Assembly: GCA_007693595.1 (NCBI GenBank)
Contig: REDI01000089.1
Location: forward strand, 62,001-126,000
Source of the DNA: Deltaproteobacteria bacterium
GTDB taxonomy: Bacteria; Myxococcota_A; UBA796; GCA-2862545
Length of the DNA stretch: 64,000 nt
Reading direction: 5' to 3'
The position numbers and the translations under genes are program-made. The notes under the pieces were generated by a model. That model worked only from the letters and a program-made list of their open reading frames with translations, was not told the DNA's origin and ran no database searches. How positions within the stretch are numbered: position 1 is the first letter of the stretch; each line of letters begins with the position of its first letter. Positions 3,762 to 9,143 of this stretch are shown piece after piece.

Positions 3762-5015
3762 CTACTCTTCGCTGCTGCTGCCGGTGATGTTCGTGATGCC
3801 CAGGTAGAAGAACCCAAAGCCCCGAATAAAGGCAGAACTCTGGGGCATCATGCCCGTGTCTGGGTCGTAGGTGTAGTTGTTGACGTCCTGGATCACGAAG
3901 ACTTCCTGGCCTTCATTGTTGGTCTCGGTGACGGGCATGAGGTCGGCTTCGAGCTCCGCTCCGAAGCCGTATCCGAGGGGAGAGCCAAGCAGGTTGCCGC
4001 TGGGGTCCTCGAAGTAGAAGCCGTGGGAGTGGTACTCGCCGTCGTCGAAGAGGTCGAAGAACGCGCCCGCTTGCGGGTTGCCGTCGAGGGTCTCCTCGAA
4101 GATCGCGCGGGCGTAGTCGATCTCACGACTCCAGCCAGCGCCCCAGGAGCGAGACAAGATGAAGTCTTCGATGTCTCCATCGGCGAAGCCGCCCAGGCCG
4201 ACGCGGGGGTCCTCTTCGGCAGCCAAGCAGCCCAGGATGCCCTCGTTGGGATCGGCGGCGTCAATCACGTCGAACTGACCTGGATCGAGGCGGTAGAGCA
4301 TCTGGTAGTACGTCGTGCCGCTGACTTCTCCGCTGTCGCTGTCGCTGTCGCTGTCGCCGTCGCCGTCGCCGGAGTCACTGTCGCCATCGCCGTCGCCGTC
4401 GCCGGAGTCGCTGTCGCCGTCGCCGTCGCCGTCGCCGGAGTCGCTGTCGCCGTCGCCGTCGCCGTCGCCAGACTCGGTATCGTCAGCAGAGTCGTCCTCG
4501 TCCGCGACGAACCAGTCGTAGAGATGGGCGTCGAGCGGGAGAGACTCGGCGGGGTTCCTTGGAATGAGGAGTACAGCGCAGGCGCGCCAGGGGTTGCCCG
4601 ACTGGAAGGAGGAGCCGTCGACGAACTCGAGGTAGAGGTAGGGGACGATCCAGTCGGAGCCACCAAAGAACGCTTCGATGCCGTCGACGGAGGCGTCGTA
4701 GTTGAAGTCGCCGGTGACCTGGAAGTTGTCGATGCTCAAGGGGCGGGCCACCGGGCCGTCATCGCAGTCGGGATCGTCGGCGTTCTCGGGATAGTCACAG
4801 AAGTCGCAGTCGGGATCGTCTGGATCGTCGGTGTCGCACACGCAGTCGCCGCCGACTGCCACGAGGGAGCCGTCGTCGCAGTAGCAGGCCGGATCGTCGG
4901 GATCTGGGCTACTGGTGTCGCAGTTCTCGATGCCGCCGCCGCCGCCGCCGCAGCCGGCGAAGGCAAGGGCCAGGCCGCTGAGGGCGAAGCCGAAGGACAA
5001 GGTCTTCTTAATCAT
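3762..5015 (-). CDS. Lipoprotein with Gly/Asp/Ser repeat linker
   Basis: This 417-residue lipoprotein has a clear signal peptide and lipobox F-A-G-C, followed by a run of Gly. Residues of about 30-90 are a Cys- and Asp-rich segment with repeated DDPD/DPDC blocks. A folded domain of about 90 residues then leads to an acidic linker made of SDSGDGDGDGD units, encoded by the tandem repeat at 4371-4469. A C-terminal domain of about 190 residues, rich in aromatic residues, ends the protein. Poly-(GD) linkers of this kind are common in secreted proteins of Plesiocystis-type myxobacteria; calcium binding is possible but not shown. The gene has its own promoter (5076-5104) and terminator, so it is probably monocistronic. 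AGGAG sits 5 nt before the ATG. Confidence 0.8.
   Translation of the reverse strand: MIKKTLSFGFALSGLALAFAGCGGGGGGIENCDTSSPDPDDPACYCDDGSLVAVGGDCVCDTDDPDDPDCDFCDYPENADDPDCDDGPVARPLSIDNFQVTGDFNYDASVDGIEAFFGGSDWIVPYLYLEFVDGSSFQSGNPWRACAVLLIPRNPAESLPLDAHLYDWFVADEDDSADDTESGDGDGDGDSDSGDGDGDGDSDSGDGDGDGDSDSGDGDGDSDSDSDSGEVSGTTYYQMLYRLDPGQFDVIDAADPNEGILGCLAAEEDPRVGLGGFADGDIEDFILSRSWGAGWSREIDYARAIFEETLDGNPQAGAFFDLFDDGEYHSHGFYFEDPSGNLLGSPLGYGFGAELEADLMPVTETNNEGQEVFVIQDVNNYTYDPDTGMMPQSSAFIRGFGFFYLGITNITGSSSEE
4371..4469. repeat. Three tandem 33-bp repeats inside the lipoprotein gene
   Basis: Three head-to-tail 33-bp copies lie at 4371-4403, 4404-4436 and 4437-4469. The second and third are identical and the first differs at two positions. 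A degenerate GTC-rich tract extends to the left to about 4331. Each unit encodes one 11-residue SDSGDGDGDGD block on the minus strand. The unit is a multiple of three, so copy-number changes would keep the reading frame. Confidence 0.95.
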
Positions 5016-6656: not shown

Positions 6657-7616
6657 TCAGTCGAGGGACTCGAACGCGGCCTGTAGCTTGGGCGCGACCT
6701 CGAAGAGGTCCGCGACCAGTCCATAGGTGGCATGCTCGAAGATTGGGGCATCGGGATCGGTGTTGACCGCCACGATGACCTTGGAGGTTCGCATACCCGC
6801 GAGGTGCTGGATGGCTCCGCTGATCCCGAGCGCGATGTAGAGTTGAGGATTGACGGTCTTGCCGGTCTGACCCACCTGATCGCCGTGAGGTGCGTAGCCC
6901 GCGTCGACCGCTGCGCGGGAAGCGCCTGCGGTGGCGCCGAGGGACTTGGCCAGCGGCCGCACCACGCTGTCGAAGTTGTCTTCGGACTTGAGCGAGCGGC
7001 CGCCCGAGACGATGCGTTCCGCTTCGCTGAGATCGACGTCGTCGCGCTCGGGGGTCTTCTGCTCGACGAGGGTGATCCGGGGTTCGGGCAGCTCTGCGCT
7101 GACCTCGACCACCTCGGCACCGCCGCTCCCGGCCTCGGGCTGACCGAAGCTGTTGGGCCGGACGGTAAAGACCGCAGGTGACCTTGTGATCCGCGCGTCG
7201 GCGAAGGCCTTGCCCGCGTACAACGGGCGCCGCCCGACGAGGGTGCCGCCGTCGACCCGCAGCTCGGTGCACTCGCTGGCTTGACCTCCACCGAGACGCG
7301 CGACTAGCCGCGGCATGGCGTCTTTGCCGAGGAAGCTGGCGGAGGCCAAGACCGCGTCGGGGCTCGCAGCCTCGAGGGCGGCCTGAAGGCCCGCCACGAC
7401 TCGATCGGTATCGTAGGACGAGAAATCGCCTGGAACTTGATAGACCTTGCTGGCGCCAAAGGCCCCGAGCTCGGTCGCGGGGGCATCACCCAGGACGGCG
7501 GCGCTCACGGTGGTTCCAAGGGCAGCGGCGAGCTCCGTGGCTTTTCCGAGTAGCTCGGCGGCGGTCTTCTTGAAGGACCCGCCTTCATGCTCAGCGATCA
7601 CGAGAATTCCACTCAT
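6657..7616 (-). CDS. etfA: Electron transfer flavoprotein alpha subunit
   Basis: The 319-residue protein is the FAD-carrying subunit of ETF, which takes electrons from acyl-CoA dehydrogenases and passes them to the quinone pool through ETF:quinone oxidoreductase. The N-terminal half is the usual nucleotide-binding fold. The C-terminal half shows the FAD-binding signature: [13 protein letters not shown], then [19 protein letters not shown] and the [21 protein letters not shown] stretch. The length is normal for EtfA/FixB. The ATG at 7616 is chosen over the TTG at 7628 because the latter codon lies in the GGAG ribosome-binding region. It is the last gene of the tetR-etfB-etfA operon, 30 bp after etfB. 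Confidence 0.95.
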
Positions 7617-7646
7617 GGTAGACTCCAATATGCAGGGAAGGGGGGT

Positions 7647-8429
7647 TCAGATGACCTTGGCTTCTTCGCGAAGCAGGCGGACGAGCTCTTGGACCATCGT
7701 GTCGACGTCGCCCTCGAGCTTGCGGCCGGCAGGACGCTCAGGAGGCAGGCTGAAGTTGGTAAGCTGCACCGCAGGCGTGATGTCGTCGGCGCTCAGATCC
7801 AGGTCGCCCAGGCTCTTGACATCGACCTTCTTTCGCTTGGCCTTCATGATGGCGGGGAGCTTGGCGTAGCGGGGCGTGTTCAGCCCGCGCTCGGCCGTGA
7901 TGACGACGGGAAGGGAGCCGGTGACGACCTCTTGGGTGCCGCCGCCCACGTTGCGGGTGGCGGTGAAGGTCGAACCATCGGTCGAGAAGTCGGTCACGAA
8001 CGAGACGTGTGGCCAGCCGAGCAGCTCGGCCACCATGGCGGGGACCTGCACGTTGTCGTCGTCGATGGCTTGCTTGCCGGTGAAGACCAACTCACAGCCC
8101 TCCGACGCGATGCCAGCCGCGAGCACGCGGGCGATGCCTAGTGGGTCGGTGCCAGCCAGGGCGGGATCGTCGACGATGACAGCGCGCTCGGCGCCTACCG
8201 CGAGTCCTCCGGCGCGGAGCTGGGTCTGCCAGTCCTTCGGGCCGGCGGAGAAGAGGATGACCTCGCCACCTTGCGCCTCTTGGGTCTGGACCGCTTCTTC
8301 GATGCCGAACGAGTCGTAGGGGCTGACGATCCACTTGATGCCCGACTCTTCGATGCCCGCGCCGTCTCCTGAGATCTTGATCCGGGTGTCGGTGTCGGGG
8401 GCGACCTTGACGCAAACGCCGATCTTCAT
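7647..8429 (-). CDS. etfB: Electron transfer flavoprotein beta subunit
   Basis: This 260-residue protein matches EtfB/FixA along its whole length. It starts with MKIGVCVKVAPDTDTRI and contains the recognition segment VPAMVAELLGWPHVSF and the SLPVVITAERGLNTPRYAKL region. It forms the heterodimer with the EtfA subunit and binds AMP. The start codon overlaps the stop of the TetR gene by 4 bp (ATGA), so the two are translationally coupled. No acyl-CoA dehydrogenase is next to it in this window. Confidence 0.95.
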   Translation of the reverse strand: MKIGVCVKVAPDTDTRIKISGDGAGIEESGIKWIVSPYDSFGIEEAVQTQEAQGGEVILFSAGPKDWQTQLRAGGLAVGAERAVIVDDPALAGTDPLGIARVLAAGIASEGCELVFTGKQAIDDDNVQVPAMVAELLGWPHVSFVTDFSTDGSTFTATRNVGGGTQEVVTGSLPVVITAERGLNTPRYAKLPAIMKAKRKKVDVKSLGDLDLSADDITPAVQLTNFSLPPERPAGRKLEGDVDTMVQELVRLLREEAKVI

Positions 8430-9058
8430 GTTACCTCCAAGGGTGTGGTTTGTTGGCCCTCGGCCAGCATGCCGCGAATGAAGACCTCGGCGATCTGATC
8501 AGCGGCGGCTTCGAGGGGAAATCTTGCTTGGTTTCGTGCGAGGACCCACTGCATCGCGAACTCGTCGAGGGCGCCGAAGAAGGCCCAGCTCAAGATGAAA
8601 GGGTCGGTGTCGGGTCGAAAGAGGCCGCGGGTCTGGCCTTCGCGGACGATCCGCCCGAAGGCGCCAAGGTAGGACCAGAGCTTCTCGGGTCGGTATTCCT
8701 TGATGAACTTGTGGCTGAGTCGGAGCTCGACCTGGAGGACCTCGGACACGGAGCGGTTGGTGCGCACCTGCTCGAAGTGAAAGCGGGCGAAGGTGCGGAT
8801 TTGAGCGATGGGATCGTCGATACCTGCGAGGGCCGCGTCGAGCTCGGCGAGCAGGAGGTCCATGTTCTCTTCGAAGATCGACAGCAGCAGATCTTCTTTA
8901 TTCTTGAAGTAGAGGTAGATCGTGCCGTCGGCCACGCCTGCTCGCCGGGCCACATCGCTCACGCGGGCCTGATGGAAGCCCTTTTCGGCGAAGACCTCGG
9001 TCGCGGCTTCGGTGATGAGGACACGTTTGTCCGTCTTTTTGGCGCGGCTTGGGGGCAT
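8426..9058 (-). CDS. TetR-family regulator, FadR-like, of the etf operon
   Basis: The protein has 210 residues with a TetR N-terminal helix-turn-helix (RVLITEAATEVFAEKGFHQARVSD followed by GTIYLYFKNKEDLL, about 13-65) and an all-helical ligand domain. It is the first gene of an operon with etfB and etfA. A palindrome with the arms of the Bacillus FadR operator sits 29 bp upstream of its start. Bacterial FadR proteins of this type repress beta-oxidation genes until long-chain acyl-CoA releases them, so autoregulation and control of electron transfer from fatty-acid oxidation are inferred. The ligand is not readable from the sequence. Confidence 0.85.
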   Translation of the reverse strand: MPPSRAKKTDKRVLITEAATEVFAEKGFHQARVSDVARRAGVADGTIYLYFKNKEDLLLSIFEENMDLLLAELDAALAGIDDPIAQIRTFARFHFEQVRTNRSVSEVLQVELRLSHKFIKEYRPEKLWSYLGAFGRIVREGQTRGLFRPDTDPFILSWAFFGALDEFAMQWVLARNQARFPLEAAADQIAEVFIRGMLAEGQQTTPLEVT

Positions 9059-9086
9059 GCAGGGCTCGACCGGCTCGGTGGGGCGA

Positions 9087-9104
9087 TGAATGAACGCTCA
9101 TTCA
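9087..9104. promoter_or_regulatory. FadR-type operator palindrome
   Basis: TGAATGAacgcTCATTCA is a perfect 7-bp inverted repeat with a 4-bp centre, located between the TetR gene and the transaldolase gene. The arms equal those I recall for the Bacillus subtilis FadR consensus. The only gene whose promoter can lie here is the tetR-etfB-etfA operon. Confidence 0.8.
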
Positions 9105-9143
9105 CTAATGCCCCGAGCCCGACCGGCAAGGGGGGGGCGACAC

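Follow-up and report, generated by a model that had tools for sequence, protein, structure and literature searches.

An exact palindrome, TGAATGAACGCTCATTCA, lies 28 bp upstream of the ATG of a tetR-like gene that is followed by etfB and etfA. Is this box the operator of the neighbouring regulator, and which genes does it govern? We examined these questions starting from a 64,000-nucleotide stretch of contig REDI01000089.1 (the window; Table 1). Our computations provide the box, the set of genes behind it, their conservation, the co-occurrence of box and regulator and the predicted fold of the latter. In the reading that we prefer, the box is very likely a switch for fatty acid use, i.e. the operator, placed at the promoter, of a FadR-like protein that represses long-chain beta-oxidation and its own gene.

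The box consists of two 7-bp arms matching each other exactly and a 4-bp spacer (ACGC), which is itself asymmetric. It is the sole match in the window, even if three mismatches are allowed. The start of etfB overlaps the tetR stop by four bases (ATGA). A gene for fructose-6-phosphate aldolase ends on the far side of the box, so that among the genes called here only the start of tetR adjoins it. The original prediction of a perfect FadR-type palindrome in front of a tetR-etfB-etfA operon was correct in sequence and gene order. The interval given for it, 8426-9104, contains tetR and the box but neither etfA nor, except for its first bases, etfB.

Table 1. Features of the fadR-etfB-etfA locus and of its surroundings (positions in the window)
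Feature	Position	Strand	Basis
Fructose-6-phosphate aldolase gene	9839-9144	-	
Candidate -35 element, TTGCCG	9124..9129	-	inferred from promoter alignment
Candidate -10 element, abutting or overlapping the first operator bases	9102..9109	-	inferred, weak consensus
Candidate operator, perfect palindrome TGAATGA-N4-TCATTCA (FadR box), 0 mismatches	9087..9104	.	pattern scan; same box before Bacillaceae fadR
tetR, fadR-like regulator, 210 aa, TetR_N and YsiA-like (TetR_C_4) domains	8426..9058	-	ORF, Pfam, fold
etfB, electron transfer flavoprotein beta subunit	7647..8429	-	ORF, Pfam ETF, NCBIfam
etfA, electron transfer flavoprotein alpha subunit	6657..7628	-	ORF, Pfam ETF/ETF_alpha, NCBIfam
417-aa secreted-looking protein with long DGDGDGDSDSG repeats	3762-5015	-	

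The assembly to which the window belongs (4,919,394 bases, 97 contigs, 98% complete) contains four perfect sites, none with one mismatch and one with two mismatches. The other three perfect sites all precede beta-oxidation genes, namely those for a 612-aa acyl-CoA dehydrogenase (site C1), for a FadN-type 3-hydroxyacyl-CoA dehydrogenase/crotonase with a thiolase behind it (C65) and for a 635-aa, ACAD9/VLCAD-like acyl-CoA dehydrogenase whose C-terminal domain is of the ACAD9/ACADV type (C85). The two-mismatch site (C11:60006) was tried as a further target and taken as chance, no beta-oxidation gene being recognised alongside. A genome scan for the 18-bp palindrome had been set beforehand as a test. 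With three more beta-oxidation operons carrying the box, the case that no other beta-oxidation gene has such a site does not hold, and the suggested use of the box for finding further regulon members proved sound.

The same gene set recurs in related genomes. Among 38 genomes of the order, including our own, 35 possess one or more sites when a single mismatch is allowed, and the 101 sites found in all compare with 5 for the pattern read backwards. We read 99 of the 101 sites, the two left out both belonging to G030. Beta-oxidation or acetyl-CoA genes follow 82 of them. Four core operons account for 72, headed by the 612-type acyl-CoA dehydrogenase (25), FadN (20), fadR-etfBA (17) and the 635-type dehydrogenase (10). 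The other 10 comprise ETF-quinone oxidoreductase (ETF-QO; 3), other acyl-CoA dehydrogenases (2) and one site each for a FadH-like protein, a thiolase, SCP2, malate synthase and citrate synthase. The citrate synthase site (L155) was scored as such, and the gene opposite could be the one served. The remaining sites precede a small coiled-coil protein (8), GltB (2), HMG-CoA synthase (1) or no recognised target (6; L118, L125, L131, L150, L153 and L161); the last six were counted as misses, and two of them, L118 and L131, fall within open frames. The 72 core targets were named by tblastn with the proteins of our own genome. For the other 27 sites, a neighbouring protein was scanned with Pfam in 19 cases, and the rest were named from their translations or from relatives (e.g. 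L109, L194, L100 and L191).

Alignment of the core sites on the box provided a view of the promoter. For this comparison we kept 69 of the 72 and removed by hand L114, which nearly duplicates L113, as well as the distant L123 and L189. Between -33 and -19 relative to the box, 35 of the 69 promoters contain the motif TTG[AC], compared with a mean of 4.5 and a maximum of 11 in 500 shuffles, and T/A is enriched at -4 to -2. In 52 of the 69, the best-scoring -10 hexamer begins between -5 and -1; several registers score alike, and no -10 consensus was fixed. With a sigma-70-type -35 element at about -27, the -10 element would adjoin the box or overlap its first bases, and transcription would start inside it. 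Such a geometry would favour repression through blocked initiation.

The arms of the palindrome had been likened to the Bacillus FadR consensus. In accordance with this, identical arms front fadR in Shouchella xiaoxiensis and a fadR copy on a B. subtilis plasmid. In S. xiaoxiensis, a perfect box precedes the gene of a bona fide FadR (292.2 bits on NCBIfam model NF053878, the Bacillus FadR equivalog, with a cut-off of 200), and a one-mismatch box precedes a FadN-type gene whose product is 44% identical to the target described here. At a third Shouchella locus (L197), an overlapping pair of one-mismatch boxes stands before a gene taken for fadF by eye, to which no NCBIfam model matched at E 1e-20. 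In the B. subtilis plasmid record, TGAATGAATAGTCATTCA is found directly before an unannotated, frame-shifted fadR copy that is followed by genes for enoyl-CoA hydratase and etfA. From its position before both fadR genes, we regard the box as the fadR box of the Bacillaceae.

The TetR protein itself points in the same direction. It matches PF00440 (TetR_N) with 66.1 bits (cut-off 24) and the YsiA-like domain PF08359 with 63.1 bits (cut-off 21). Its best match in the library is NF053878 with 160.6 bits, below the cut-off, which keeps it out of NCBI's narrow Bacillus FadR equivalog. The closest relatives of solved structure by sequence are FadR of B. halodurans and B. subtilis. When the predicted fold (pLDDT 88) was compared with known structures, the Bacillus FadR entries 3whb, 5gpa, 3whc, 1vi0, 5gp9 and 5gpc occupied ranks 1 to 6 (Z 22.4-23.0, rmsd 1.7-2.1 over 184-188 residues), the next entry reaching Z 19.4. 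One of the six, 3whc, is FadR with stearoyl-CoA. Identity to Shouchella FadR amounts to about 35%, with a less well aligned C-terminal half, and both proteins have exactly VADGTIYLYFKNKED in the helix-turn-helix. The Vibrio PsrA model NF053516, the sole PsrA model scored, gave 26.7 bits, its cut-off being 300. The protein is thus FadR-like, as had been proposed, being nearest to Bacillus FadR in sequence and modelled fold. We therefore place it in the YsiA-like (PF08359) group, and it probably works like Bacillus FadR.

These observations suggest the following course of events. A dimer of the TetR protein would bind TGAATGA-N4-TCATTCA in the -10/start region of its own fadR-etfB-etfA operon, and equally at the operons of the 612-aa dehydrogenase, of the FadN-type protein with thiolase and of the 635-aa dehydrogenase. 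As long as acyl-CoA is scarce, the bound protein would act as a repressor, not an activator, and block initiation. Long-chain acyl-CoA, the putative ligand, would fill the C-terminal pocket and cause the dimer to leave the box. Its release would then induce the dehydrogenases together with the remaining enzymes of the spiral and with ETF, the acceptor of the dehydrogenases' electrons.

Alternatively, the TetR protein might bind the box and govern beta-oxidation while responding to an acyl-CoA with a short or branched chain, to a free fatty acid or to some other lipid, and its 35% identity to Shouchella FadR together with the weaker alignment of the C-terminal half would permit this. We nevertheless consider such an inducer improbable, since the C-terminal domain is recognisably YsiA-like and stearoyl-CoA-bound FadR is among the six nearest folds. 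Moreover, one target carries the ACAD9/ACADV C-terminal domain of the long-chain type, and just 2 of the 10 acyl-CoA dehydrogenase matches (PF02770) in the genome have the box, the other 8 lacking it within one mismatch. Long-chain acyl-CoA hence remains the inducer that we favour.

Whether the box belongs to this regulator can be judged from their joint distribution. A close ortholog of the regulator was found in 35 of the 38 order genomes (in G001 as a fragment only). In G002 and G006, which belong to the same family as our genome, neither the ortholog nor a site was found. G029 (72% complete) has two sites and no regulator that we could find, and G019, which has the regulator, shows no site even with one mismatch allowed. 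We examined 30 regulator loci from the 35 genomes that have a close ortholog: 15 contain a box with no more than one mismatch, 5 a box with two and 4 a box with three only, and 6 have none. Genus g11 (G011 and G020) presents an apparent case of regulon turnover. Both genomes keep the regulator (73-75% identity) and have no box within three mismatches at its locus (L041 and L042); their boxes (L137-L142) stand before GltB and the small protein in both genomes, HMG-CoA synthase in G020 and, with one mismatch, malate synthase in G011.

At the level of the class (71 genomes), a perfect site occurs in 62 genomes and the regulator, at E 1e-25, in 64. In a phylum sample of 188 genomes, 62 have a perfect site and 99 the regulator, and the backwards pattern is found in none. 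Outside the class (150 genomes), the regulator is present in 26 of the 30 genomes with a perfect site versus 38 of the 120 without one (Fisher p = 5e-8, a value that treats genomes as independent, which related genomes are not). Of the 64 out-of-class genomes with the regulator, 38 have no perfect site; the exact box is therefore not retained everywhere. Perfect sites outside the class number 44, and we read 40 of these. Genes for fadR-etfB, acyl-CoA dehydrogenase or FadN follow 37 of them, PEP carboxykinase 2 and a cytochrome c7-type protein 1, the last (L255) being left out of the target count. Both PEP carboxykinase sites (L243 and L246, family f15 of the phylum) are perfect FadR boxes before the ATP-type enzyme, tying fat use to gluconeogenesis.

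One genome of the same order, G041, stands apart with 125 perfect copies of the palindrome and none of the backwards pattern; in the other 70 class genomes the count ranges from 0 to 5. We read 26 of the G041 sites (e.g. L200-L218), 24 perfect and 2 with one mismatch, one of the latter before fadR. Twelve of these 26 lie between convergent gene ends and two inside called frames, and 6 of the 24 perfect sites are followed by a recurring stretch of about 40 bases and a GC-rich hairpin. The boxes in front of fadR (L219, one mismatch) and of the 612-type acyl-CoA dehydrogenase (L280, perfect) are retained in G041. The numerous copies possibly represent an extragenic repeat equal to the operator, serving as a decoy array or forming an independent hairpin.

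Could the box then be the site of another regulator, with the neighbouring TetR protein using a different sequence? The boxless regulator loci of genus g11, the 125-copy repeat of G041, often at gene ends, and 4 of the 30 out-of-class genomes with a site, in which no regulator was found at E 1e-25, are what such a view could draw on. It is very unlikely, however, given that box and regulator co-occur across the phylum, that 17 of the 99 order sites precede the regulator's own gene and that the same box precedes fadR in Shouchella. Finally, a chance or structural (hairpin) palindrome devoid of a regulatory role is already contradicted and was rejected as next to impossible: 73 of 100 window shuffles do contain a match if three mismatches are tolerated, but the four perfect sites, all before genes of a single pathway, compare with 0.002 expected in 4.92 Mb at the base composition of the window, and the backwards control gave nothing in our own assembly or in the 188 phylum genomes and 5 against 101 in the order.

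An autoregulated FadR-like repressor of beta-oxidation is well in line with what is known from Bacillus. B. subtilis FadR is described as repressing lcfA-fadR-fadB-etfB-etfA and four other operons and as being inhibited by C14-C20 acyl-CoA (PMC4525379). The system presented here resembles FadR (YsiA) of B. subtilis and B. halodurans in the TetR_N and YsiA-like domains, the fold (Z 22-23), the arms of the box and the 4-bp spacer, and the regulon does so in the linkage of fadR with etfB and etfA and in its FadN/thiolase and acyl-CoA dehydrogenase targets. It differs from Bacillus in the identity of about 35%, below the equivalog cut-off, and in its occurrence in a Gram-negative lineage. Furthermore, the fadR operon lacks lcfA and fadB, the acyl-CoA dehydrogenases reside in separate operons, and relatives add ETF-QO, malate synthase, PEP carboxykinase, GltB and the small lipid-droplet-like protein. 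FadR of Thermus thermophilus is of the same superfamily and does the same job, whereas its consensus box, given as TTRNACYNRGTNYAA (PMC5597230), is different from and unrelated to the one found here. PsrA and FadP of Proteobacteria are likewise TetR regulators of fatty acid degradation. The Shewanellaceae PsrA regulon is reported to include TCA and glyoxylate genes as well, and FadP to be unique to betaproteobacteria among the genomes of that study (PMC5343134). E. coli FadR shares the name and, according to PMC6449355, the physiological role; it belongs to a different protein family (GntR).

The small coiled-coil protein of about 150 aa follows eight order sites (L220, L221, L222, L224, L226, L229, L233 and L171), the L171 protein being a distant family member with 24% identity to the first. 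A search with the G011 member found matches in 20 of the 38 order genomes, itself counted, and none in our own. At these 20 loci, a box with at most one mismatch is present in 7 and with two mismatches in 3 more, and 10 have none. Pfam returned nothing above its cut-offs. In five of six members tested, a C-terminal motif, YDELN..KARKTV, weakly matches the NCBIfam model of the mycobacterial lipid-droplet protein Rv1109c (E 3e-5 to 0.05; best score 24 bits against a cut-off of 110). Two of the three top-scoring members (L228 and L223) have no box. We take this sequence resemblance as a lead, not as evidence of family membership.

Our search of the open-licence literature, which did not extend to RegPrecise itself, found no report of such a regulator in this lineage. 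The kind of system is known; new are the lineage and a phylum-wide regulon to which relatives add malate synthase, PEP carboxykinase and the small protein family. Tentatively, and with somewhat less than even confidence, the phylum-wide FadR box might be seen as an old switch for lipid use that is broader than beta-oxidation, one repressor setting both storage-lipid bodies and fat burning. Acyl-CoA sensing might then be joined to ETF, ETF-QO, malate synthase (glyoxylate shunt), PEP carboxykinase (gluconeogenesis) and the small Rv1109c-like protein.

In practical terms, target genes for fatty acid use in this lineage can be listed directly from the box, which also points to the small protein as a possible lipid-droplet factor. 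As the same box is found in Bacillaceae, members of a different phylum, the regulator and its site would represent a clear case of a repressor and its operator kept together over a very long evolutionary distance.
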